Source of the DNA: Cochleicola gelatinilyticus
GTDB lineage: Bacteria; Bacteroidota; Bacteroidia; Flavobacteriales; Flavobacteriaceae
Direction: 5' to 3'
Assembly (NCBI RefSeq): GCF_001637325.1
Contig: NZ_LRXL01000026.1
Span: forward strand, 248,001-312,000
Length of the DNA stretch: 64,000 nt
Under the pieces are notes generated by a model that worked only from the letters and a program-made list of their open reading frames with translations, was not told where the DNA came from and searched no databases. The translations under genes were made by a program, and so were the position numbers. Shown here one piece after another: positions 30,805-42,990 of the stretch (positions are counted from its first letter, which is position 1; every line of letters begins with the position of its first letter).

Positions 30805-31968
30805 TTATACTTCATTCTTTCGGCGTGCTTTAAACCACCGTTCAGGAATTTCCTGATTGCATGCACCCAAATATTCGCCATAAGTGCAAGGTAATAACGT
30901 TCTCCTTTTTAATTTATTATTAACATTTGAAATAAAAGGTAATTCTATCCACCATCGCCCCGTTTTATGGCTCTTTTTAAACACCAACACCTCTTCTTCT
31001 ACCGGCACTTTATAGGTTGTAAAAAGCATTTCATCGTCAAAATCTTCGTCATCAACTCTAAAATTAACTCCTTCTATAAAATACCAAAGCATTTGTGCCA
31101 CTAAAACAGCACCACCTTTTGCCAGAGTTACATCACCTAATTCATACACACCAAATGAGCTTACTTTATTACTAATACCTGCATAGCGAGCAATGGCACA
31201 TATTTCCCTGCCGTCGAATCCATTAGGACCCGTATTATTTGTGTAATTTACCTCTCCCCCCTTTATTGCGGTAATATCTACAGAGACTAGATCTGCATTA
31301 CGCATGATAGGTTCTGTTATGGTAATATCTGATGTTATTTCGCCCAATCTATACGCATCGAAATACAATTTTTCCATTAATGAAATTTCTTGCGGCGGAT
31401 TAAAATAAGATTGATATCCGAGGGTACTGTAATTAAATAAATTATAAGGTTTTTCAATTATAAGCTTTCCGACATAAGACACGTTCGAAATTGGTTTTTC
31501 GGCATCGCCAAGATCAAATCGGGAATCAACATTTACAAAATTGATCATTTTACTAAGCACATCGTAAGCTCGGTATTGCGCATACACCAAGTCTTGACTC
31601 CCTCCTAAAAGCAAAGGAATAATATTTTCTTTTAATAACGCACCCACTACAGTTTTTACTGCATAGTAAGTATCTGCTACAGTATCTCCTTCTTGAATAT
31701 CTCCCAAATCAGCAATAGTGTGAATCCAATTCCCAGGATATAGCGCATAGAATGCTTTTCTATACTCATCGAAATTTACCGAAGCACCTATATAATTTAC
31801 ATCGTTTCTATTCTCACAAATCCCTAACAATGCAAACTTTACGTTTTTAAGATCAGGGAGTTCACCCGACTTAGAATGTATCTTAATTTGTTTGGCCAGT
31901 ACTCCCTCAGGAAGCACTTCTTTATGAGCTTGTACAGATTTAGAAACAGGGGATAAAAATTCGATCAT
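30805..31968 (-). CDS. Arginase/formimidoylglutamase-fold protein with degenerate metal site
   Basis: 387 residues with the arginase fold: L-L-G-G-S-Q-D near 121, V-N-V-D-S-R-F-D near 144, D-L-V-S-V-D-I-T near 226. In active enzymes these are G-G-D-H, D-A-H-x-D and S-x-D-x-D. Here H is Q, the middle H is R and the last D is T, so about half of the six manganese ligands are gone while the surrounding fold is kept. It is often labelled formimidoylglutamase in this position, but catalysis as usually understood is unlikely. Ends one base inside topA's stop (shared base), between topA and gldK, suggesting coupling to topA. Confidence 0.82.
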   Translation of the reverse strand: MIEFLSPVSKSVQAHKEVLPEGVLAKQIKIHSKSGELPDLKNVKFALLGICENRNDVNYIGASVNFDEYRKAFYALYPGNWIHTIADLGDIQEGDTVADTYYAVKTVVGALLKENIIPLLLGGSQDLVYAQYRAYDVLSKMINFVNVDSRFDLGDAEKPISNVSYVGKLIIEKPYNLFNYSTLGYQSYFNPPQEISLMEKLYFDAYRLGEITSDITITEPIMRNADLVSVDITAIKGGEVNYTNNTGPNGFDGREICAIARYAGISNKVSSFGVYELGDVTLAKGGAVLVAQMLWYFIEGVNFRVDDEDFDDEMLFTTYKVPVEEEVLVFKKSHKTGRWWIELPFISNVNNKLKRRTLLPCTYGEYLGACNQEIPERWFKARRKNEV

Positions 31969-34499
31969 TACTTTTTCTTCGCAGTAGTTTTTTTCTTAGC
32001 CGTGGTTTTCTTTTTGGCAGTCTTCTTCTTCTTGGTCGTTTTCTTCTTAGGTGCTTTCTTTTCTAAAATCGCCTGTGCTTCTTCTAACGTAATCTTTTCA
32101 GCTTTCGTTGTTTTTGGCAATTCTACTTTCGTTTTTCCTTTTATAAGGTTAAAACGACCCCAACGAGCTTTCTCTAAACGAATTCCTTCATCTGGCCATT
32201 CGTTAATAAGCTTATCTATTTCTTTTTGTTTTTTAACTTCAATAAGTTCTATAATATCTTCTTCGGAAAGATTATCGAAATCATATTTTTTATTCACGTT
32301 AATAAACATGTCATTCCATTTTATAAATGGACCAAATCTTCCTTTTCCTTTCTGAACCGGAAGTCCTTCGTATTCATAAATTGGGGCATCGGCTTTTTTC
32401 TTTTCTTCAATAAGTTCTTTTGCCAGTGTCATATCTACATCTAAAGGGTCTGTTCCCTTCGGAAGCGAAATAAACGTTTTTCCTAACCTTACGTACGGCC
32501 CAAACCTTCCGTTATTTACCTCTACTTCTTCTCCATCGTATACTCCTAAGGTTTTCGGAAGCTTAAACAAATCCATTACTTCTTCAAAAGTAACTAGGTG
32601 TAATTGTTGGTCGGGGCGTAAGCTTGCAAATTTTTTCTCTTCGTCATCTGGAGCTCCGATTTGCGCCATAGGTCCAAATTTTCCTAATCGCACTAACACA
32701 GGTCTCCCTGTTTCGGGATCATCTCCTAAAATACGTTCTCCACTTTCTCGGTCTGCATTTTCCTGTACATTTTCTACTTGCGGATGAAAGGTTCCGTAGA
32801 AATCTTTCATCATTTTTTTCCATTCTTCTTTGCCTTCTGCTATGTCATCGAAATCTTCTTCTACCTTGGCTGTAAAATTATAATCAAGAATGTTTCCGAA
32901 GTGATCCACTAAGAAATCGTTTACAATAAGCCCAACATCTGTCGGAACCAATTTCCCTTTGTCGGACCCTACAGTCTCAGTAAGTGATTGGTCTTTTAGC
33001 GTGTCGTTTTCTAACGTTAGCTGAAGATAGGTTCGCTCTGTCCCGTCGATTGTTCCTTTTTCCACATAGTTTCTACTAATTATGGTAGAAATTGTGGGAG
33101 CATAAGTAGAGGGTCGGCCGATACCCAATTCTTCGAGTTGCTTTACTAAAGAAGCTTCTGTAAAGCGATACGGAGGTCTTGTAAATCGTTCGGTCGCTGT
33201 AATATAATTATTATCTAGGTTGTCTCCTTTGCTTAATTTAGGCAACATTCCATCTTGTTCTTCGTCTTCGAAATCGGTTCCTTCGAGATACACTTTTAGA
33301 AAACCGTCGAATTTTATCATCTCTCCGTTTGCCGTGAATTGCTCTGAAACAGATGACTTTCCATTCACTGCGATCTTCACATTGGTACGTTCTAATTGCG
33401 CATCACTCATCTGAGATGCAAGAGTTCGTTTCCAGATAAGGTCGTACAAACGTTCTTGATCGCGATCTCCGCTAATGGAATGCAAAGACATATCGGTGGG
33501 ACGTATCGCCTCATGCGCTTCTTGAGCACCTTTCGATTTCCCTTTATAGTTTCGAGGTTTGCTGTATTCGCTTCCGTAGGATTTTGTGATTTCTTTTTCT
33601 GCCGCTGCTTTTGCATCGTTTGAAAGATTCACACTATCGGTTCTCATATAGGTAATGCGACCTGCTTCGTAGAGTCGTTGTGCGATCGTCATCGTTTTTC
33701 CTACTGAAAAATATAATTTTCGAGCTGCTTCCTGTTGAAGCGTCGATGTTGTAAAGGGTGCTGCTGGTGATTTTTTTGCTGGTTTTTTAGTTAAGTCTGC
33801 AATAGAATAAGATGCCCCTAGGTTCTTTTTTAGAAATTCTCGTGCTTCGTCTTCGGTATCGAAGTTCTTCGGAAGTTTTGCTTTAAAACTACTTCCGTCG
33901 GCAGTACTAAATTCTGCATCGATGCGGTAGGATCTAACAGGACTGAAAGCTTCTATTTCTCGCTCCCGCTCTACAATTAAACGTACAGCCACACTTTGAA
34001 CCCGGCCTGCTGAAAGCCCTCCTTTTACTTTTCTCCAAAGCACAGGAGACAATTCATATCCAACAAGACGATCTAATACGCGTCGTGCTTGTTGTGCATT
34101 TACAAGGTTATAGTCTATTTTTCTGGGATTCTCGATTGCTTTTAGAATTGCTGTTTTGGTGATCTCATGAAAAACGATTCTTTTGGTTTTTTCATCTTTA
34201 AGATCTAACTCTTCGGCTAAATGCCATGCAATTGCTTCTCCTTCTCGATCCTCATCACTCGCTAGCCAGACCATTTCAGCTTTCTTCGCAAGTGCCTTTA
34301 ATTCTTTTACAATGCTCTTCTTATCACTCGACACTATGTATTTAGGTGTAAAATCCCCATCAACATCCACACCCAATTCCTTGGAGGGTAAATCTGCAAT
34401 ATGCCCAAAACTTGAGGACACCTTGTAGTCTTTTCCGAGAAATTTTTCGATGGTTTTCGCTTTTGCGGGGGACTCAACAATTACTAAATTCTTTGCCAT
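31968..34499 (-). CDS. topA: DNA topoisomerase I
   Basis: 843 residues from the ATG at 34499 (M-A-K-N-L-V-I-V-E-S-P-A-K-A-K). The open frame continues upstream, but the -7 box at 34519-34526 would fall inside such an extension, so the shorter start is chosen. TOPRIM with E near 9 and D-E-D-R-E-G-E near 100; catalytic Tyr in the I-T-Y-M-R-T-D-S segment. Several C-terminal repeats and an unusually long K-K-x-T tail (about 820-843) replace the zinc fingers of the E. coli enzyme, as commonly seen in Bacteroidota. Relaxes negative supercoils. Confidence 0.97.
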   Translation of the reverse strand: MAKNLVIVESPAKAKTIEKFLGKDYKVSSSFGHIADLPSKELGVDVDGDFTPKYIVSSDKKSIVKELKALAKKAEMVWLASDEDREGEAIAWHLAEELDLKDEKTKRIVFHEITKTAILKAIENPRKIDYNLVNAQQARRVLDRLVGYELSPVLWRKVKGGLSAGRVQSVAVRLIVEREREIEAFSPVRSYRIDAEFSTADGSSFKAKLPKNFDTEDEAREFLKKNLGASYSIADLTKKPAKKSPAAPFTTSTLQQEAARKLYFSVGKTMTIAQRLYEAGRITYMRTDSVNLSNDAKAAAEKEITKSYGSEYSKPRNYKGKSKGAQEAHEAIRPTDMSLHSISGDRDQERLYDLIWKRTLASQMSDAQLERTNVKIAVNGKSSVSEQFTANGEMIKFDGFLKVYLEGTDFEDEEQDGMLPKLSKGDNLDNNYITATERFTRPPYRFTEASLVKQLEELGIGRPSTYAPTISTIISRNYVEKGTIDGTERTYLQLTLENDTLKDQSLTETVGSDKGKLVPTDVGLIVNDFLVDHFGNILDYNFTAKVEEDFDDIAEGKEEWKKMMKDFYGTFHPQVENVQENADRESGERILGDDPETGRPVLVRLGKFGPMAQIGAPDDEEKKFASLRPDQQLHLVTFEEVMDLFKLPKTLGVYDGEEVEVNNGRFGPYVRLGKTFISLPKGTDPLDVDMTLAKELIEEKKKADAPIYEYEGLPVQKGKGRFGPFIKWNDMFINVNKKYDFDNLSEEDIIELIEVKKQKEIDKLINEWPDEGIRLEKARWGRFNLIKGKTKVELPKTTKAEKITLEEAQAILEKKAPKKKTTKKKKTAKKKTTAKKKTTAKKK

Positions 34500-34518
34500 G
34501 TTCATTTTATTAGGGCTA

Positions 34519-34526
34519 CAAAAGTA
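34519..34526 (-). promoter_or_regulatory. -7 box of topA
   Basis: Minus strand TACTTTTG (TAnnTTTG), 20-27 bases before the preferred topA ATG; its position decides the start codon. Confidence 0.65.
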
Positions 34527-34643
34527 TATTATTTTTTTAACACGATATTTTAAATCTTCATTTTCTACAAATTTGTGATTTACAAAAACTGTGATTTGAT
34601 ACTGTTTCTTGCACATAATTAAATAGTAAGATTCTAAGCAAAC

Positions 34644-34674
34644 TTGCCATATCGCATTTAAAATTGTAATCTTG
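34644..34674 (+). promoter_or_regulatory. Probable promoter of the DUF4956-CotH-VTC cassette
   Basis: TTG (34644-34646), a 20-base gap, then TAATCTTG (34667-34674), one mismatch from TAnnTTTG. Leader of about 50 bases to the ATG at 34732. Confidence 0.55.
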
Positions 34675-34731
34675 CACAAAATTTACCATTACATAACCAT
34701 CTCGTAACATCAATTTATTGCAGCCTTTCTT

Positions 34732-35409
34732 ATGGAAGAATTATTAAATCAGTTCAACGCGAATTCAGAAGCTACTTTTTCTCTAATTAACTATTTGCTA
34801 AATATTGCCATATGTAGTGTTTTATTATTTATTCTCTCTTTTGTATATATCCGCTATGGCAAATCGATCTCTAATCGATCACAACTTTCTAAAGTACTTA
34901 TTGTAGTAGGGCTTACTACCTTTATTATTATTTCGATTGTAAAGTCCTCACTAGCCCTCTCTTTAGGTCTGGTAGGTGCCTTATCGATTGTTCGTTTTCG
35001 TACTGCGATAAAAGAACCAGAAGAATTAGGGTACTTTTTTATTGCAATTGCTATGGGATTAGGTATGGGTGCAGGACAACTCTACCCTACCATCGTAGGA
35101 TTTTTCGTTGTGTGCATTATTGTAATCGTACTTAACAAAAGAAATGTAAGGTCTGCCATTACCCAAAATCTTCTTATTGCTGTTCCAACCACAAACGAAC
35201 AAAAAACAAAAATCGCAGATCAAATTACAGATGTAATTATGAAGCAATCCAATCAAGTAGATTTAAAACGTTTAAAATTTAACGAGGATACAGTGCACTT
35301 AAATTTTCTTGTTAATGTATCTTCTATAAAAAAATTGAACACTATAAACGAGGACCTAATGGCAATAGACAATACAATGGACATAACGTTTATAGATACT
35401 CAATTATAA
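34732..35409 (+). CDS. DUF4956 membrane protein
   Basis: 225 residues. Four membrane spans (about 20-42, 57-78, 80-97, 107-133). The motif G-L-V-G-A-L-S-I-V-R-F-R-T-A-I-K-E-P-E-E-L marks DUF4956, which contains conserved polar residues between spans 3 and 4. A C-terminal cytoplasmic ferredoxin-like domain (about 140-225) follows, resembling the soluble domain of MgtC-like proteins. DUF4956 genes are known to sit beside VTC and CotH genes. First gene of the cassette. Confidence 0.88.
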   Translation: MEELLNQFNANSEATFSLINYLLNIAICSVLLFILSFVYIRYGKSISNRSQLSKVLIVVGLTTFIIISIVKSSLALSLGLVGALSIVRFRTAIKEPEELGYFFIAIAMGLGMGAGQLYPTIVGFFVVCIIVIVLNKRNVRSAITQNLLIAVPTTNEQKTKIADQITDVIMKQSNQVDLKRLKFNEDTVHLNFLVNVSSIKKLNTINEDLMAIDNTMDITFIDTQL

Positions 35410-35427
35410 TATGTGTAGTACTGAATT

Positions 35428-38400
35428 ATGAGGATTGAAAATAAAAAAAAACGGATTACAAATTCGACACTATTTTATTTTAGTGCAGGGATCCTTCTAT
35501 TAGTTACGCTAATCATTTTACACTTTACCTGGGGAGCTCCAAAAAAAGTAAACTTAGCAGTAGATGAGCTAGACACCCCTACCACACTCATTACCGAAAC
35601 AACCTACGAACGAATGATCGAGGCAGACATCAATCTCATTCATCGTGATTCAGAATTTTCGATATATGCGAATGAAGTTCGGGGCAAGGCAGAACTTATT
35701 TATGTGTATAAAGCGCCTTTATTAGGTCGTAAAAAAACCGATAAATTTTTTCTTCACCTCTTTATTAACGATTCATTAAAAACAAAATCAAGTTCTTCTA
35801 AAGAGCCTTTTCTCGGATTAGATTTTTTTCCATCAGACAACGCTACAGAGTACACCGTTGATGGAACCAAGTATATATTCTTTACTAGACAACTTCATCA
35901 CTATGCTTTCGAAGGAAAAGACATCCCTTTTAATGCAATAGAATATATTAATACTGGAAGATTTGCATCTGGCGAAGGACGTTCGCACGGTGTAAATGAT
36001 TTAAAAATTAGTGCTAAAAAAACAGAAGAGAGCATTAATAAGGAATCTGAACGTTTACTCTCCATTTACATTTCTGAGAAAAGTTATAACAAAATAAAAA
36101 CTCAACGAAAAGCCGCACTAGAAAAAGGCATCCTTTTTTCGGGTGATGATGATATTGTAAAAACAAAGGTAACGCTACAAGATGAAAATGGAACCACCGC
36201 CCCACTAAAAGCAGACTTGCGGTTAAAAGGCGACTTTACAGATCATTTAAAGCATCCCAATAAATGGTCGTATCGTGTTATTTTAGATGGAAATAAAACA
36301 CTCTTCGGAATGCGTAAATTCTCGGTACAACACCCACGTACCCGAAACTATAGCTGGGAGTGGCTGTTCAACAAATTGGTTAAAGATGCTGGGCTTATTG
36401 GACTTCGATATGAATTTGTACCCGCAAACCTTTATATTGATAGAAGCGGAAGTAACGAACCAATTTCTATGGGCTATATGGCTATTGAAGAATCGTTCGA
36501 TAAAATACTTATCGAAAACAATAACCGCAGAGAAGGCTTAATTCTTGGTTTTGAAGAATCTCTTATCTGGAACGACAGAGCCCAAAAGAACGAACTCAAC
36601 CTAGACATCGACGAAACAGCTGCCGATGGTGATTTTTATCGCGCAAATCTGCCTATTAAAGTTTATAATGAAAACAAAGTGCTTGGTGACCCTAAATTAA
36701 CTAAGCAGTTTGAGACTGCAAAAAGCTTGCTTGAAGGAGTACGAACTAAAAAATTAAAAGTCTCAGAAGTCTTCGATCTTGATAAATTAACCACATATGT
36801 CGCATTAGCGAACTTATTTGGAGGCAAACATGGATTGATTTTTCACAATCTAAGAATATATTACAATCCAGTAACTGGTAAATTAGAACCTGTTTCGTTC
36901 GATTCGAATGCGGGAAACAGACTCCTTGATCTAGCATATTTCCCATACGTATCTAATGATACGAAGTACGAGGAAATGCTAAACAAAAAACTTCGCCTTG
37001 TGAGTAGTGAAAGTTTTATTAAAAATCAAGTTCTTCCCTATGTGTCACAATTAGAACAACTAGACCGGCAAGTCATGTCTGAGTTCAATTGGAAAATAAA
37101 TCTTGCAGTCTTAGAACATAACAGCAACTTTATTAAAAAGAAACTCAATCCATCGAACACCCTTTTAACCAGTCTGGCCGATCATTCCAAAAATGTGATG
37201 AAGGTGAATGTAAAAAATGTTTCGGGTATGCCTATCGACATTACTGGTCTTACCCACGAAGACGGAAAAAAACTAGACAAGAATTTCCCTATTACTCGTC
37301 TTTTACCCGATGAGGAAAAGATAATTTCATTTCCGCTTAACAGATCGTTCGACAATGCATTTGTTTCAAAAAAAACAAAAAAAGCAGGTTTCAGATACCC
37401 GAAAGATGTGTCTAAATTGCGCATAATTCATCATATCCCGGGAATTTCTATCGAAAAATCTGTGATGATTGCTTCCTTTGGAAAAAACCCTAACTTAGAT
37501 GAGAATCTCGATAATTATTCCGACTTCCGAAGCAGTAACGCTACTACTTTTAAGTTCGTGAGTATTGACGATGCAACCCAAACCGTACGACTTAAAAAAG
37601 GATCTTTCGAAATACAACAAGACCTCAAAATTCCCGCTGGATACACCGTGATTATTGAGCCCGGATTCACCCTGGACTTAAAAAACAACGCTTCATTTAT
37701 CTCTTACAGTGCCATTGAAGCTAAAGGAACAAAAACACTACCTATTACATTTAAAAGCAGTAACAACTCGGGAGCTGGAATATTTGTTACCAACACCATC
37801 AAATCATCTACACTCGACCATTGTATCTTTATGAATCTTTCAAATCCCACCAACGACTTGTGGGAGTTATCGGGAGCGGTAAATTTTAACGAAAGTGAGG
37901 TCGCCATTTCAAACTCTGTATTTGAAGGCAATCGTTGTGAAGATGGACTAAATGTAATTCGCTCTAAATTTTCGGTGACAGATTGTACTTTTAAAAATAC
38001 ATTTTCAGATGCCTTCGACGGGGATTTTGTTGAGGGAAGCATTACCAATTCCTTATTTATTAACTCTGGTAACGACGGAATTGACGTCTCGGGAACTACA
38101 CTGTATTTAGAAAACATTCGTATTGAAAATCCTTCAGACAAGGCGATAAGCGCTGGTGAAGACAGCCAAATCACAGGAAAAAATATTCAGGTTACAGGAG
38201 GAGAAATTGGTATTGTAAGCAAAGATCTCTCTTCAGTTACGTTTGAAAATGTGATTATAAAAGACACCCATCTTGCCCTATCGGCTTTTCAGAAAAAAAC
38301 AGAATATGGCACAGGCACCCTTACCATTTCTGAAGCCACCTTGCAAAATAACGAACTGGACCACCTCATCGAAACCGGCTCACACCTTACACTCAACAAT

Positions 38401-38475
38401 ATCGCTGTTGAAACTGTAACCAATAATGTAATCGACAAAATGTATGGAAATGAATATGGGAAAAGCAGTCGATAA
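35428..38475 (+). CDS. CotH-kinase-like protein with C-terminal beta-helix
   Basis: 1015 residues. One N-terminal span (about 14-32) leaves the rest outside the cytoplasm. A CotH-type kinase domain covers about 190-560: L-R-L-K-G-D-F-T-D-H-L near 272, K-W-S-Y-R-V near 287, F-G-M-R-K-F-S-V-Q-H-P near 298, and V-S-F-D-S-N-A-G-N-R near 490. CotH proteins are atypical protein kinases. From about 690 to 1000 there is a right-handed beta-helix with repeated N-S-x-F-x-N-S-G-N-D-G-I-D-V-type turns, likely a surface carbohydrate- or polymer-binding scaffold. Downstream of DUF4956 by 18 bases and overlapping the VTC gene by 32. Confidence 0.85.
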   Translation: MRIENKKKRITNSTLFYFSAGILLLVTLIILHFTWGAPKKVNLAVDELDTPTTLITETTYERMIEADINLIHRDSEFSIYANEVRGKAELIYVYKAPLLGRKKTDKFFLHLFINDSLKTKSSSSKEPFLGLDFFPSDNATEYTVDGTKYIFFTRQLHHYAFEGKDIPFNAIEYINTGRFASGEGRSHGVNDLKISAKKTEESINKESERLLSIYISEKSYNKIKTQRKAALEKGILFSGDDDIVKTKVTLQDENGTTAPLKADLRLKGDFTDHLKHPNKWSYRVILDGNKTLFGMRKFSVQHPRTRNYSWEWLFNKLVKDAGLIGLRYEFVPANLYIDRSGSNEPISMGYMAIEESFDKILIENNNRREGLILGFEESLIWNDRAQKNELNLDIDETAADGDFYRANLPIKVYNENKVLGDPKLTKQFETAKSLLEGVRTKKLKVSEVFDLDKLTTYVALANLFGGKHGLIFHNLRIYYNPVTGKLEPVSFDSNAGNRLLDLAYFPYVSNDTKYEEMLNKKLRLVSSESFIKNQVLPYVSQLEQLDRQVMSEFNWKINLAVLEHNSNFIKKKLNPSNTLLTSLADHSKNVMKVNVKNVSGMPIDITGLTHEDGKKLDKNFPITRLLPDEEKIISFPLNRSFDNAFVSKKTKKAGFRYPKDVSKLRIIHHIPGISIEKSVMIASFGKNPNLDENLDNYSDFRSSNATTFKFVSIDDATQTVRLKKGSFEIQQDLKIPAGYTVIIEPGFTLDLKNNASFISYSAIEAKGTKTLPITFKSSNNSGAGIFVTNTIKSSTLDHCIFMNLSNPTNDLWELSGAVNFNESEVAISNSVFEGNRCEDGLNVIRSKFSVTDCTFKNTFSDAFDGDFVEGSITNSLFINSGNDGIDVSGTTLYLENIRIENPSDKAISAGEDSQITGKNIQVTGGEIGIVSKDLSSVTFENVIIKDTHLALSAFQKKTEYGTGTLTISEATLQNNELDHLIETGSHLTLNNIAVETVTNNVIDKMYGNEYGKSSR

Positions 38476-39166
38476 AAACGCTTATTACAACCTTCGTTTC
38501 GAACGAAAATTTGTATTCACCAACCAGTCTCTAGAAGATGTTCTTAATTTCACGGTACATACCAACTCATTTCTTTTTAGCGAGATCTTTCATGAACGAA
38601 CGGTAAATAATATCTATTTCGACGATGGCGATCTTACCTGTTACAAACAAAATGTTTCTGGAGTGGATATTCGCGAGAAATACCGATTACGCTGGTATGG
38701 AAAAGAGTTTCATGCCATCGAAAAATCGACGTTAGAAGTAAAGAAGAAATTTGGTGATGTGGGTGATAAAATTTCTTTTAAACTGAAAGATTTTAATGTT
38801 GACCTTCGCACCCAATCAGCAGACGCAGTTCACAATCAACTGTTACAACGTATTTCTGAAGAAAACAATCCTGCATTGCTGGGAAAACTTCAAAATTTAT
38901 TTCCTACTTTGTACAACAGTTACGATCGAAGGTATTTTTTATCGCAGTGCGGCAACTTCAGAATTACATTAGATTATCACATGAAGTTCTATAATCCGAA
39001 CTACGCTGATTTTTATGCTTCAGAAATGACTACCAATGACGTCGTGCTCGAATTAAAATACAATCGAGAACACGATGATGAAAGCAGACTACTAAGTCAG
39101 GAAATTAATTCCCGATTATCTAAAAACTCTAAATATGTACGTGGTGTGGAGGCTATTTCTTTTTAG
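38444..39166 (+). CDS. VTC-domain polyphosphate polymerase-like protein
   Basis: 240 residues, no membrane span. The VTC tunnel motifs are present: L-R-F-E-R-K-F-V near 18 (E-R-K), I-R-E-K-Y-R-L-R-W-Y near 77 (basic, phosphate-binding), L-E-V-K-K-K near 97, and V-V-L-E-L-K-Y-N near 200. These residues contact polyphosphate and nucleotide in yeast Vtc4, where the domain makes polyphosphate from ATP. Bacterial VTC homologues coupled with CotH and DUF4956 have unproven roles. Three possible starts (38444, 38450, 38456) all overlap the CotH stop. Confidence 0.86.
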   Translation: MEMNMGKAVDKNAYYNLRFERKFVFTNQSLEDVLNFTVHTNSFLFSEIFHERTVNNIYFDDGDLTCYKQNVSGVDIREKYRLRWYGKEFHAIEKSTLEVKKKFGDVGDKISFKLKDFNVDLRTQSADAVHNQLLQRISEENNPALLGKLQNLFPTLYNSYDRRYFLSQCGNFRITLDYHMKFYNPNYADFYASEMTTNDVVLELKYNREHDDESRLLSQEINSRLSKNSKYVRGVEAISF

Positions 39167-40007
39167 TCTATTTATAATAGGATACAGTTGCGAAAAAAGA
39201 TCTGAAATCGATCAAACTGCCACTCCTATATACTACCTCTATATTTCTCACACGCGCTTAGAAACGAACGACAGCATCTACAATAAGATTTACGGTATAG
39301 ATTTCGATCGATATTCGGCGACTCTTTTAGGAGGAGATCTTGCTAAAACAACGTTCGCTAATGACACAATACAAAACCATCTCGATGCGGTATTTAATTT
39401 TAAACATAAAGCAACACTTTGGAGCATTGGCAATCACGACAGAACCTCCAATGAAAAATTTAGAGCGCTAACAGGGAAAAATAAGTTTCACCACTATCAA
39501 CAAGACGATGCAAGCTTTATCACCTTAGACTCTCAAGACAGCTTGAGCTCGATCGTTGGAGCACAAAAAGAATTTCTTCTTACAACTCTCGACACCCTTA
39601 CAACCAAAAATGTTGTAATTCTATGTCATAAACTCATATTCATGGATAAGCACCATATCATGGATCCACTTATTAATGAAACTAGTAACGGAAGAAAGGG
39701 GGATTGTTTTTATTGCTTAAACCCGAACAACTTTCAAGCAGAAATATATCCTGAACTTTTAAAAATAAAAAACAAAGGCAAAAATATTTTTTGGATTGGA
39801 GGCGATCTGGGCTACAAAACATCATCTTTTGAATATGTCGACACAAACGGAATTACCTTTTTAGGAAATGGAGTGTGGCACCCGAGAGAAGAAAACAAAG
39901 CGCTGCTATTTAAAAATCAGGGTAACGAAATAACCTATCGATTTACTCATATCGACAGTCTGTTAAAGCATGAAAGCAACCCTAAATATTTCTTCGGAAA
40001 CAAATAA
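39135..40007 (+). CDS. Metallophosphoesterase-like lipoprotein
   Basis: 290 residues. Lipoprotein signal: a hydrophobic core then I-I-G-Y-S-C (C19). Calcineurin-type motifs are partly present: G-G-D-L (about 73-76), I-G-N-H-D (about 98-102), V-V-I-L-C-H (about 160) and I-G-G-D-L-G near the end. The first D-x-H motif and the final G-H-x-H motif are not obvious, so activity is uncertain. The start overlaps the VTC stop by 32 bases, tying it to the cassette. Probably faces the periplasm or surface. Confidence 0.75.
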   Translation: MYVVWRLFLFSLFIIGYSCEKRSEIDQTATPIYYLYISHTRLETNDSIYNKIYGIDFDRYSATLLGGDLAKTTFANDTIQNHLDAVFNFKHKATLWSIGNHDRTSNEKFRALTGKNKFHHYQQDDASFITLDSQDSLSSIVGAQKEFLLTTLDTLTTKNVVILCHKLIFMDKHHIMDPLINETSNGRKGDCFYCLNPNNFQAEIYPELLKIKNKGKNIFWIGGDLGYKTSSFEYVDTNGITFLGNGVWHPREENKALLFKNQGNEITYRFTHIDSLLKHESNPKYFFGNK

Positions 40008-40035
40008 TAAAAAACATTTTTCTGAAACAACATTT

Positions 40036-40632
40036 ATGAAACAATTCCTTTTTTCTATTAGTGTACTCATCCTGTTTTCTTGTTGTAGTTCTTCAGAAAA
40101 ATACACCGTGCTCACCACCCTTTCTGAAGCCGATACAGTAACTTGTGTCATTGAAATTCCAGCAGGTACTAATAAAAAGATTGAACAAAACAAACAAACC
40201 TATCGTTTTGAGATCGATCAACGGGATGGCAAAGACCGAGTGATTCAATTCCTGCCCTACCCTGGAAATTACGGATACATTGCAGGCACTTATTCCGATC
40301 CTGAGAAAGGTGGCGATGGTGACGCACTAGATGTTTTGGTGATTGCCGAAACCCTTCCGTCGGGCACAATTTTACAAACCATTCCCTTAGGTGTTTTAAA
40401 ACTTATAGATGATGGAGAAGAAGATTATAAAATTCTTGCCATTCCTTCAGATCCTGCTTTGCAAACAGTGACGGCTAAAACCTTTAGTGAATTTAAAAGC
40501 AACTATCCACAGGCTGTTGAGATTATTCAGCTTTGGTTTTTAAATTATGACACAGAACCTATTAAAGTTTTAGGCTGGGGTGATGAGATCGAAGCTCTTT
40601 CAGAAATAAAGAAAACAATTGTTGTTATATAG
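40036..40632 (+). CDS. Inorganic pyrophosphatase lipoprotein
   Basis: 198 residues from the ATG at 40036. Lipoprotein signal F-S-C-C-S-S (lipid on C16 or C17), then a family I soluble pyrophosphatase: Y-P-G-N-Y-G-Y-I near 75, D-G-D-A-L-D-V-L-V near 95 with the metal aspartates, and D-G-E-E-D-Y-K near 130 with further ligands. All main catalytic residues appear present. Exported lipid-anchored pyrophosphatase is unusual, since the classic enzyme is cytosolic, and it follows a phosphoesterase-like lipoprotein and a VTC gene. Confidence 0.9.
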   Translation: MKQFLFSISVLILFSCCSSSEKYTVLTTLSEADTVTCVIEIPAGTNKKIEQNKQTYRFEIDQRDGKDRVIQFLPYPGNYGYIAGTYSDPEKGGDGDALDVLVIAETLPSGTILQTIPLGVLKLIDDGEEDYKILAIPSDPALQTVTAKTFSEFKSNYPQAVEIIQLWFLNYDTEPIKVLGWGDEIEALSEIKKTIVVI

Positions 40633-40646
40633 CACTAAAAATAACC

Positions 40647-41423
40647 TTAAAGCTTTAAAGTTTCATTGTTCATTTCAAAATCTGTTTCTTCAAAACCTAC
40701 AGTGTCTTTATACACATAATACATAGCTATATGTACATACGAGACCGTTGCTAGAATACCAATACCGCAAGCAATAATTCCCAGTTCAGCAATAAGCCCC
40801 GAAACCAGCATCATGGCAAAAAGCAATAACCAGAATTTATTTCCAAGTTTAAATGATGCTTTAAGTAGTTCCGAAACAGTTAGTTTGGGATTAAACGCTA
40901 AGATTACAATAGCTAAATTTAAAGGGACTATTACATAAAATAAAGGAAGGTAGCACAAGAGCATTGCTGCAATAGATATTCCCACAACAGCGAGTTGAAG
41001 CATAAAAATTTTCATGAAAGTTGCTTCTTTTATAAAACTAAAATAGCCCCCGATAGGTTCTTGTATGCCCATATCTTCTTTTTTACAAAGCCTGAAGAAA
41101 TGGACCGTTATTGAGGTTACAAAAACCTGAAGGACTAAAATAAGTGCAAATACAAGGATAAAATAACCAATCATCCACACCACAGGAAACGCAACAAAAG
41201 GATTAAATTCACTTGCATACGTTGTTTCTTGTGCATTTAGTAATAGAGGGATCAGCGGTGCATATACAATGAGAAGAATAGGGAGAACCACCGCAATAGA
41301 CAGTAATATATGGATCAATCCTTCGACCCATATTTTTTTAAAAAGTTCAAAACTTTTGGAAAGCACATCACCAAAATCGAAAGTCGTAGCTCGTTCAATT
41401 CGTTGAAAAATGGTTGTCTTCAT
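40647..41423 (-). CDS. Multi-span membrane protein, unknown function
   Basis: 258 residues with about six membrane spans grouped in pairs (about 35-60, 75-100, 120-140, 145-165, 185-210, 215-240) after a short soluble N-terminus (F-D-F-G-D-V-L-S-K-S-F). It resembles the membrane proteins annotated as DUF4013-like or glycerophosphodiester-phosphodiesterase membrane-domain-like, but I cannot fix the family. Transcribed opposite to the pyrophosphatase and divergently from miaB. Confidence 0.7.
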   Translation of the reverse strand: MKTTIFQRIERATTFDFGDVLSKSFELFKKIWVEGLIHILLSIAVVLPILLIVYAPLIPLLLNAQETTYASEFNPFVAFPVVWMIGYFILVFALILVLQVFVTSITVHFFRLCKKEDMGIQEPIGGYFSFIKEATFMKIFMLQLAVVGISIAAMLLCYLPLFYVIVPLNLAIVILAFNPKLTVSELLKASFKLGNKFWLLLFAMMLVSGLIAELGIIACGIGILATVSYVHIAMYYVYKDTVGFEETDFEMNNETLKL

Positions 41424-41479
41424 ATAACGTTGGTTATTTTTATAAAAGCGGTAAAGCTATAAAAAAGAAATCTGCCAGA

Positions 41480-41510
41480 TTGTCATAAGTGCATAAAATT
41501 TGTATCTTTG
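41480..41510 (+). promoter_or_regulatory. miaB promoter
   Basis: TTG (41480-41482), 20-base gap, TATCTTTG (41503-41510): a full Bacteroidota promoter. Transcription should start near 41514-41517, so miaB starts further upstream are excluded. Confidence 0.85.
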
Positions 41511-41538
41511 CATGTTCATTGATACAGGAATAGAAACT

Positions 41539-42990
41539 ATGTCGCGACAACCCACTATGGAAAAGATTATTGACGAAAAAAAACAGGGAACTACGCTCGT
41601 AACAGATGTAAAAGGCGACACGAGTCGCAAACTCTATATTGAAAGTTACGGATGCCAAATGAATTTCAGCGATAGTGAAATTGTAGCGTCTATTCTTACA
41701 AAACAAGGATATAGTACGACTCAAGATCTAAAAGAGGCCGACCTTGTTTTGGTAAATACCTGTTCCATTCGTGATAAAGCAGAACAAACCGTTCGCAAAC
41801 GTCTCGAAAAATTTAATGCTGTAAAGCGAGATCACAATCCGAAGATGAAAGTAGGAGTGCTTGGCTGTATGGCAGAGCGGTTAAAAAGCAAATTTCTCGA
41901 GGAAGAAAAAATTGTGGACATGGTTGTTGGTCCCGATGCGTATAAGGATCTACCTAATTTACTGGAAGAAGTGGACGAAGGTCGTGACGCAGTGAATGTA
42001 GTACTCTCGAAAGATGAGACCTATGGTGATATTGCTCCAGTACGTTTAGGCACAAATGGCATTACCGCCTTAGTTAGTATTACCCGGGGCTGTGATAACA
42101 TGTGCACCTTTTGTGTGGTTCCGTTTACACGCGGAAGAGAACGAAGTAGGGATCCACAAAGTATCTTAAAAGAAGTGAACGATCTGGCGGCGAAAGGGTA
42201 TAAAGAAATTACTTTACTTGGGCAGAACGTGGATAGTTATGTGTGGTATGGCGGCGGACTTAAAAAAGATTTTGAAAAGGCTTCGGAAATGCAAAAGGCA
42301 ACAGCAACGAGTTTTTCCGAATTATTAACGTTGGTCGCAGAAGCACAACCTAAAATGCGTATTCGTTTTTCAACTTCGAACCCACAAGACATGACCGAAG
42401 ATGTATTTCATGTCATGGCAGCACATGCTAATATTTGCAATCATATTCATCTACCTTTTCAGAGTGGTAGTGACCGCATGTTAAAAGCAATGAATCGCCA
42501 GCACACAGCAGCAGAATACTTAAAGTTGGTTAAAAGAATGTGGGAAATACTTCCCAACTGTACCATTTCGCAAGATATCATTGTAGGTTTTCCGGGTGAG
42601 ACCGAAGAGGATCACAACGATACGCTACGATTAATGGAGGAAGTAAAATTTATCTTCGGATACATGTATAAATATTCAGAACGTCCCGGAACCATGGCTG
42701 CAAGAAAATTTGAAGACGATATTCCTGAAGCAACAAAGAAAAGGAGACTGGTAGAAATAGTCGATGCCCAAAGAAAACATGGCGCTTATAGAACGCAACA
42801 ATTTGTTGGCAAAACTACCGAAGTATTAATTGAACGGGAATCAAAGAAAAACGAAAACGAATGGAGCGGTCGAAACGAGCAAAGCATCGTAGTTGTATTT
42901 CCTAAAGAACAGTATAAACCAGGAGATTTTGTAAAAGTAAAGATAAACGACTGCACCAGCGCCACACTCATAGGAGAGGCTGTTGAATAG
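41539..42990 (+). CDS. miaB: tRNA-2-methylthio-N6-isopentenyladenosine37 synthase MiaB
   Basis: 483 residues from the ATG at 41539. UPF0004 domain with the auxiliary-cluster cysteines (Y-G-C-Q-M-N, N-T-C-S-I-R, G-C-M-A-E-R), radical SAM core with C-D-N-M-C-T-F-C, and a C-terminal TRAM domain. It adds the methylthio group to i6A37 of tRNAs reading UNN codons. Starts at earlier codons are ruled out by the promoter at 41480-41510; a further ATG at 41557 is possible. Confidence 0.97.
   Translation: MSRQPTMEKIIDEKKQGTTLVTDVKGDTSRKLYIESYGCQMNFSDSEIVASILTKQGYSTTQDLKEADLVLVNTCSIRDKAEQTVRKRLEKFNAVKRDHNPKMKVGVLGCMAERLKSKFLEEEKIVDMVVGPDAYKDLPNLLEEVDEGRDAVNVVLSKDETYGDIAPVRLGTNGITALVSITRGCDNMCTFCVVPFTRGRERSRDPQSILKEVNDLAAKGYKEITLLGQNVDSYVWYGGGLKKDFEKASEMQKATATSFSELLTLVAEAQPKMRIRFSTSNPQDMTEDVFHVMAAHANICNHIHLPFQSGSDRMLKAMNRQHTAAEYLKLVKRMWEILPNCTISQDIIVGFPGETEEDHNDTLRLMEEVKFIFGYMYKYSERPGTMAARKFEDDIPEATKKRRLVEIVDAQRKHGAYRTQQFVGKTTEVLIERESKKNENEWSGRNEQSIVVVFPKEQYKPGDFVKVKINDCTSATLIGEAVE

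Follow-up and report, generated by a model that had tools for sequence, protein, structure and literature searches.

A three-gene core of DUF4956, CotH-fold/beta-helix and VTC proteins in Cochleicola gelatinilyticus, possibly a cell-surface phospho-modification system with recurrent hydrolase accessories

What brings a membrane protein, a kinase-like protein, a polyphosphate polymerase and two phosphate hydrolases together in one run of genes? The question is raised by a 64,000-nucleotide stretch of the Cochleicola gelatinilyticus genome (contig NZ_LRXL01000026.1, positions 248,001 to 312,000), hereafter the window, in which five open reading frames (ORFs) on the plus strand, genes 1 to 5, span 34732-40632 between divergent topA and miaB. 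The initial annotation described an envelope phosphate cassette of five genes on one strand, and that count and orientation are borne out. Our analysis indicates that the conserved core consists of three genes, encoding a DUF4956 protein, an exported CotH-fold/beta-helix protein and a VTC protein, and that the inorganic pyrophosphatase (PPase) and the phosphoesterase are recurrent, not fixed, accessories. The reading we favour, while giving it somewhat less than an even chance, is that the core is a cell-surface phospho-modification system whose target is secreted glycan or matrix, with exported polyphosphate as a possible supply.

Genome contigs were scanned with the beta-helix of gene 2 alone, which yielded 193 relatives, and the best 80 were kept for the counts. 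These are from Flavobacteriaceae, Saprospiraceae, Cytophagales, KSB1, Calditrichota, Delongbacteria, Planctomycetota and one Spongiibacteraceae metagenome-assembled genome, and the carriers include Dokdonia pacifica and Dokdonia sinensis, both of which have strain records. DUF4956 was found in 73 and VTC in 72 of the best 80 loci, and both were found in all 44 that are well-flanked, with at least 3 kb on either side. The recurrence of the core across phyla exceeds chance, and the view that DUF4956, CotH and VTC genes form a conserved system holds, with CotH recognized by fold. The PPase is present in 28/80 loci (21/44 well-flanked) and the phosphoesterase in 24/80 (15/44); at least one of them is present in 41/80 (27/44) and both in 11/80 (9/44). 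Among the 30 well-flanked loci labelled Flavobacteriaceae, 20 have the PPase, 11 the phosphoesterase and 23 either one. Six well-flanked loci do not carry the Bacteroidota label (two of them have no phylum label at all); among these there is no PPase and one phosphoesterase. Twelve gene arrangements occur among the 44 loci. A core tree, from which the near copy L128, the two-cassette locus L104 and loci with less than 3 kb on a side were left out, shows nine changes for the PPase and eight for the phosphoesterase. The linkage of these two genes to VTC, as proposed in the initial annotation, is thus recurrent, particularly in Flavobacteriaceae, and neither gene is fixed. Four stretches of viral contigs matched a VTC pattern and none encodes a relative, as judged with a single-protein query that reaches close relatives only. 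Plasmids gave one distant match, a Pseudobutyrivibrio CotH-VTC-DUF4956 cluster among glycosyltransferases.

Gene 2 (35428-38475, plus strand) encodes the exported protein of 1015 aa. Its structure, modelled from 54 sequences (predicted local distance difference test score, pLDDT, 89.5; predicted template modelling score, pTM, 0.70), contains a CotH-fold kinase-like domain (residues 207-602; 36046-37233) and a right-handed beta-helix (residues 696-1000; 37513-38427), preceded by a predicted N-terminal helix (residues 12-35) that is read as a membrane anchor. The top Foldseek match of the model is Bacillus cereus CotH (5jd9, E 1.1e-10), and the predicted kinase-like domain aligns with 5jd9 at a VIA Z of 25.6 over 315 residues. 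When a profile of 51 kinase-like domains was compared with PDB sequences, CotH was the sole match up to an E value of 10 (5jd9, E 5.1e-8), and hhalign related this profile to seven CotH proteins of other VTC loci with a probability of 96.2% (E 2e-9). Pfam CotH (PF08757) matches all six scanned of those seven and none of the 11 gene 2 family proteins scanned, the one in the window included. One of these 11 gives a match to Pfam ILEI (E 2.4e-6). Locus L104 (2619-11028) carries two CotH-fold proteins of different kinds in two cassettes, and its bridging protein, which has a beta-helix, matches both Pfam CotH and the 51-row profile, forming a bridge between the families. The modelled beta-helix is nearest to alginate epimerases (AlgG 4ozz: Z 27.0, root-mean-square deviation 2.7, 276 residues aligned), and its Z scores against AlgG and AlgE of 25.6-27.0 compare fold alone. 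Of the 30 residues invariant in the 54-row alignment, 28 lie within the beta-helix, many of them Asp; these rows were fetched by the beta-helix, and three of them have a degenerate kinase domain. The kinase-like domain taken alone has 11 invariant residues in 51 rows.

The catalytic site of this domain departs from that of CotH. CotH is a Ser/Thr kinase, and the B. subtilis enzyme is inactivated by substituting Asp228 or Asp251 (PMC7821199; for this and the other papers cited, our statements refer to the portions of text available). We infer the positions of these residues on B. cereus CotH from their 23-residue spacing. The Asp251 counterpart, D492, is Asp in 48 of 51 rows and Glu in three. 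At the Asp228 site, two alignments lie one residue apart, one pairing it with G469 and the other (hhalign) with H468. Column 468 is His in 49/51 rows and Glu in 2/51, column 469 is Gly in 31/51, and Asp occurs at neither column in any row (0/51 each). N474, which closes the stretch H468...N474 (36829-36849), is kept in 47/51 rows. CotH proteins from other VTC loci have Asp at the Asp228 site (three in the alignment and, in addition, a Pseudobutyrivibrio one judged by eye). Because the Asp228 counterpart is lost, we regard the gene 2 family as CotH-like in its modelled fold and do not class it as a CotH kinase. The designation "CotH kinase" in the initial annotation is therefore upheld for the fold, by both the model and the 51-row profile, and not for the Pfam family or the catalytic Asp.

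The two modules of gene 2 are encoded separately in some relatives. Sixteen loci contain two long CotH-fold ORFs, of which three were set aside because the gene is broken (L072), the locus is cut (L126) or two cassettes are present (L104). In all 13 others, the H...N...EP motif occurs solely in the partner lacking the helix, and the beta-helix solely in the partner lacking the motif; the helix of L109 was missed by the pattern and placed by its beta-helix search match, and L127 and L128 nearly duplicate each other. Where a locus has a single long protein (60 loci), 55 show the motif, 57 the helix pattern and 52 both, the catalytic-loop motif being scored with a looser pattern. Since the split loci keep motif and helix in separate partners, both modules seem to be needed.

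These observations bear on two alternatives to glycan phosphorylation by the core. The kinase-like domain could be an inactive pseudokinase scaffold, the beta-helix an enzyme acting on a secreted glycan (epimerase, lyase or hydrolase), and VTC and DUF4956 regulatory, in the manner of MgtC-like phosphate sensing. The lost catalytic Asp and the AlgG-like fold with its many invariant Asp residues are consistent with this, as is the effect on Pel amount of the Streptococcus intermedius DUF4956-type gene, whose product was likened to MgtC/ACT (PMC12345266). However, conservation of H468 (49/51 rows), N474 (47/51) and D492 (48/51), together with retention of the motif in its own partner when the domains split, points to selection on the kinase-like domain, and we consider the scaffold improbable. 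Alternatively, proteins of the matrix or cell surface could be the substrates of the CotH-fold domain, much as CotB and CotG are those of CotH, with the beta-helix merely targeting the domain to polysaccharide. The fold and profile matches to CotH, itself a Ser/Thr kinase (PMC7821199), agree with such a surface protein kinase, but the catalytic Asp of CotH is replaced, and a beta-helix holding 28 of 30 invariant residues, albeit in rows fetched by the helix, suggests more than targeting. We think this account rather unlikely.

Gene 3 (38444-39166, plus strand) encodes a VTC-type polyphosphate polymerase domain protein (PF09359, 100.4 bits, cut-off 23). A nine-row VTC profile that includes the window protein matches the structures of yeast Vtc2 and Vtc4, and the counterparts of Vtc4 R264, R266 and E426, mapped by alignment position (chain number plus 185), are invariant in 9/9 rows. 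Triple substitution of these residues impairs the yeast enzyme (PMC9911596). By inspection, no signal or membrane segment was seen in the gene 3 protein. The genome also carries two PP_kinase (PF02503) genes (L230 and L231, at G000:C36:600204 and G000:C25:222400), one of them about 60 kb from the cassette, and VTC is therefore probably not required for ordinary polyphosphate. Gene 1 (34732-35409, plus strand; 225 aa) encodes the DUF4956 membrane protein (PF16316, 70.7 bits, cut-off 30.6). Its model (pLDDT 80.4, pTM 0.58) shows about five helices, taken to span the membrane, and a ferredoxin-like domain at the C-terminus (residues 143-222). This C-terminal domain fills the match list of the fold search, in which MgtC C-terminal domains stand at ranks 25 and 35; the hhalign probability for DUF4956 against MgtC, represented by just two rows, is 0.5%. 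The family identities given to genes 1, 3 and 5 in the initial annotation all pass the Pfam cut-offs. A second VTC type also exists in the family (L019-L025, L032 and L045), in which VTC lies beside DUF4956; those loci that were scanned have a DUF2490 protein or a canonical CotH protein in the vicinity.

The VTC-DUF4956 pair could instead serve polyphosphate export and recovery, the polymer serving outside to store phosphate or bind cations, the phosphoesterase and PPase as periplasmic polyphosphatases, as in yeast vacuoles, and the CotH-fold protein as the polyphosphate anchor. The steadiness of the pairing and the recurrence of both exported hydrolases would suit such a system, as would the coupling of synthesis to a membrane channel in yeast VTC (PMC9911596). 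However, it leaves the constant kinase/beta-helix protein and the polysaccharide neighbourhood described below unexplained, and both hydrolases are gone from 17 of the 44 well-flanked loci. We regard export and recovery as unlikely.

The genes around the cassette were compared with profiles of ten polysaccharide-synthesis and sulfation families. Twenty-eight Flavobacteriaceae loci of about 20 kb were set against 40 control stretches, drawn from 20 family genomes with a single contig, each sampled at two preset positions. At least three matches were found in 18/28 loci and in 1/40 controls (Fisher p 1.6e-8), a generous figure, as the profiles were built from clusters of the same loci and related loci also inflate the test. 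None of ten loci with the second VTC type had three matches, and 11/40 controls had at least one. Pfam scans of neighbour examples identified an epimerase, glycosyltransferases, O-antigen ligase, MBOAT, flippase, sulfotransferase and APS kinase. APS-kinase-type genes occur in six loci (L068, L098, L099, L103, L109 and L113) and sulfotransferase-type genes in five, with one example of each scanned; such sulfate-activation-like genes near the cassette hint at glycans that are sulfated as well as phosphorylated. PelG was not found above the cut-off in any of 20 core-carrier genomes, including that of the window, and one match at E 7e-4 in a single genome falls below it.

Collectively, these results lead us to prefer, tentatively, a phospho-modification role. 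VTC, with its conserved active site, would make cytoplasmic polyphosphate; DUF4956, its constant membrane partner, would carry polyphosphate, or else relay a signal, through the inner membrane. The anchored CotH-fold domain, placed outside the membrane, would phosphorylate a secreted glycan or matrix protein, and the epimerase-like beta-helix may bind or act on the glycan. Where present, the phosphoesterase and PPase lipoproteins could trim phosphate and hydrolyse leftover pyrophosphate (PPi) or short polyphosphate. This reading draws on the presence of DUF4956 and VTC in all 44 well-flanked loci fetched by the beta-helix alone, on the union of CotH and AlgG folds in one protein together with the retained VTC active-site residues, and on the frequency of polysaccharide and sulfation genes in related loci relative to controls. 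It also draws on the co-occurrence in genomes of an exported-type PPase with a CotH-fold-type VTC locus (5/9 versus 12/190 genomes, p 2.5e-4), exported-type being defined as over 130 bits with a PPase profile built from four VTC-linked ones. S. intermedius makes less Pel when its CotH gene is deleted and more when its DUF4956-like gene is deleted, and each deletion reduces aggregation by more than 50% in one medium (PMC12345266), so that both genes alter Pel amount and aggregation, in further support of this role. The separate keeping of motif and helix in the 13 split loci, the sulfation-type neighbours and the presence of two PP_kinase genes in the genome count in its favour as well.

Several observations weigh against the phospho-modification reading. 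The absence of Asp at columns 468 and 469 means that the CotH catalytic Asp is gone, and the gene 2 domain may be a pseudokinase. The 17 well-flanked loci lacking both hydrolases count here as well. In an earlier survey with a VTC profile across the order and phylum, 5/20 loci had a CotH-fold protein, and in these the PPase lay beside 1/5 and the phosphoesterase beside 0/5, one contig being short. The window has no match to the polysaccharide-gene profiles in 27-47 kb, and neither have 8/28 of the loci compared. The extracytoplasmic-polymer setting proposed in the initial annotation is accordingly supported by the related loci, which have polysaccharide genes around them much more often than the control stretches do, and not by the genes around the window cassette itself. 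The role of VTC is the weakest link, because the S. intermedius VTC deletion mutant still aggregates and makes Pel, with no change reported for the traits measured in the available text of PMC12345266. Transport of a substrate by DUF4956 is putative.

Adenosine triphosphate (ATP) is scarce outside the membrane. A more specific form of the phospho-modification reading would have the His-site CotH-fold domain use exported polyphosphate instead of ATP to phosphorylate polysaccharide held by the beta-helix, with the lipoprotein PPase destroying chain-end PPi; we consider this quite improbable.

Gene 4 (39135-40007, plus strand) encodes a metallophosphoesterase-related lipoprotein. The window protein has no Pfam match, to PF00149 or any other family, and the phosphoesterase-like call of the initial annotation stands through its relatives, since two of three alignment rows, namely the two relatives, match Metallophos PF00149, and so does a further relative, L123 (34.7 bits, cut-off 21.5). 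The motif set H, GD, GNHD, H, GD is common to a conserved SHTR subtype in a 23-row alignment, in which a 250 aa length limit left out fragments in L077 and L079. The idea that gene 4 is degenerate was dropped, as this set is conserved among the 23 rows. Relative to what we take to be the canonical motifs, gene 4 and its 22 relatives have His for Asp in motif 1 and Asp for His in motif 5, as if metal ligands had been exchanged. A lipobox-like Cys, scored with a loose rule, lies at residue 19 of gene 4 and residue 16 of gene 5, in line with the lipoprotein assignment made from the start, and is present in 19/22 cassette phosphoesterases and 28/28 cassette PPases.

Gene 5 (40036-40632, plus strand) encodes a family I PPase (PF00719, 106.7 bits, cut-off 23.5) whose acidic and Lys positions, which we take to include the catalytic ones, are invariant in 4/4 rows. 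The exported PPases are split from four housekeeping enzymes at 100/100 in the PPase tree. It had been suggested that the exported enzyme pulls the polymerase reaction forward by removing PPi. VTC polymerases move the terminal phosphate of ATP, leaving adenosine diphosphate (ADP) and not PPi, which makes this role unlikely; in addition, the PPase looks like an exported lipoprotein while the VTC protein, by inspection, carries no signal or membrane segment.

Among 199 family genomes, an exported-type PPase is present in 17, VTC of any type in 16 and VTC with a CotH-fold protein in nine. PPase and VTC are close together in four genomes, that of the window and G008, G108 and G188; they are 57 kb apart in G044, and in G187 the contig ends just past VTC. 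An exported-type PPase without any VTC match is found in 12/199 genomes. Together with the 57 kb separation in a thirteenth and the nine changes on the core tree, this shows that the PPase linkage is not fixed. In 4/13 unlinked genomes (L167, L168, L169 and L172), the interval from topA to miaB has the PPase as its sole occupant. In L132, the closest relative of the core, the same interval contains the core with a phosphoesterase and without a PPase. The topA-miaB interval (34505-41540 in the window) is variable in the family, holding the PPase alone, the core with a phosphoesterase, or both.

Some rows were removed before the PPase trees were computed: four named copies that duplicated included loci, L173 for its shortness, and a single aberrant row with a low score. 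The housekeeping rows were reduced to four. The window PPase is nearest to L169 and L168 and falls outside a set of 37 rows within which the remaining 28 cassette PPases are found (87/95, not starred), while the fourth topA-miaB resident, L172, is placed elsewhere. A single clade of all cassette PPases was rejected (p 7.9e-7), a rejection in which the more distant exported type of L121 and L069 (141-143 bits) weighs, and one clade of the window PPase with three residents was permitted (p 0.355). Exported PPases thus seem to have been recruited repeatedly beside the core, which favours a functional tie between them. The window copy itself may be older than the cassette. We give slightly better than an even chance that it stands outside the cassette, as an older gene of the topA-miaB interval that the core came to adjoin. 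The lone PPases at this position, the PPase-free L132 at the same spot and the proximity of the window PPase to three residents argue for it. The window branch lacks starred support, however, the clade with the three residents is merely allowed, L172 falls elsewhere, and an exported PPase adjoins the core in many other loci.

The junctions of genes 1/2, 2/3, 3/4 and 4/5 are +18, -32, -32 and +28 bases. A 32-base overlap had been noted once; it occurs at two junctions, genes 2/3 and 3/4, and the first is valid only with the first ATG of gene 3, which has further ATGs at codons 3 and 5 (alternative starts at 38450 or 38456). The start of gene 5 is most likely at 40036, 28 bases past gene 4; a longer ORF from 39970 would begin within gene 4. 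The promoter placed ahead of gene 1 corresponds to a possible Bacteroidetes-type pattern, TTG-N20-TAATCTTG (34644-34674, plus strand), under a consensus that we presume to apply. The pattern is present as proposed, and because its relaxed form occurs 15 times in the 64 kb (both strands combined), the promoter call is weak evidence. The listed topA ORF (31968-34679) begins with TTG; by eye, an ATG near 34505 is the likelier start, and some 226 bases would then separate it from the divergently oriented DUF4956 gene.

Secretory-pathway glycan kinases exist; should glycan phosphorylation by the core prove real, bacteria would have a counterpart to them, and this would raise the question of the extracytoplasmic phosphate donor. 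The literature found places the CotH-VTC-DUF4956 triad chiefly beside Gram-positive Pel loci (PMC7112168, PMC12345266), and the authors of PMC12345266 (2025) could not find it outside Pel, as stated in the available text. A Clostridium perfringens locus combines CotH and polyphosphate-polymerase genes with glycosyltransferase and polysaccharide deacetylase genes (PMC11677781). Here the triad is found across Bacteroidota (including many marine ones), other lineages of the Fibrobacteres-Chlorobi-Bacteroidetes (FCB) group and some Planctomycetota. New here are the domain fusion and the changed catalytic site, in a triad without PelG above the cut-off in 20 carriers; neither the beta-helix fusion nor the His site is described in the accessible portions of the triad literature, at which no search for either was aimed.

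Compared with known systems, the cassette resembles S. intermedius SIR_1594-1592 in its three gene kinds, a secreted CotH-like protein, a VTC-type polymerase and a membrane protein with an ACT-like end (SIR_1592 being, in our reading, the DUF4956 protein), and in its polysaccharide setting. It differs in that none of 20 carrier genomes has PelG above the cut-off, in the fusion of the CotH fold to an epimerase-like beta-helix, in the replaced catalytic Asp and in the PPase and phosphoesterase lipoproteins. Gene 2 shares with CotH (5jd9/5jda) the fold over 315/358 residues and the Asp251 counterpart, whereas its Asp228 counterpart is His or Gly/Ala and the 11 proteins scanned escape Pfam CotH. 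Gene 3 and the yeast VTC complex have in common the VTC domain family and the counterparts of R264, R266 and E426; unlike the yeast complex, gene 3 shows no SPX or membrane domain and is partnered by DUF4956, not Vtc1. The likeness of gene 2 to the mannuronan C5-epimerases AlgG and AlgE is one of beta-helix fold alone, at 10-14% identity and with a CotH-fold domain fused to it. Gene 5 agrees with family I inorganic pyrophosphatases in passing the Pfam cut-off and conserving the acidic and Lys positions, and differs from the usual members as a predicted lipoprotein placed outside the cytoplasm, on a branch apart from the housekeeping enzymes.

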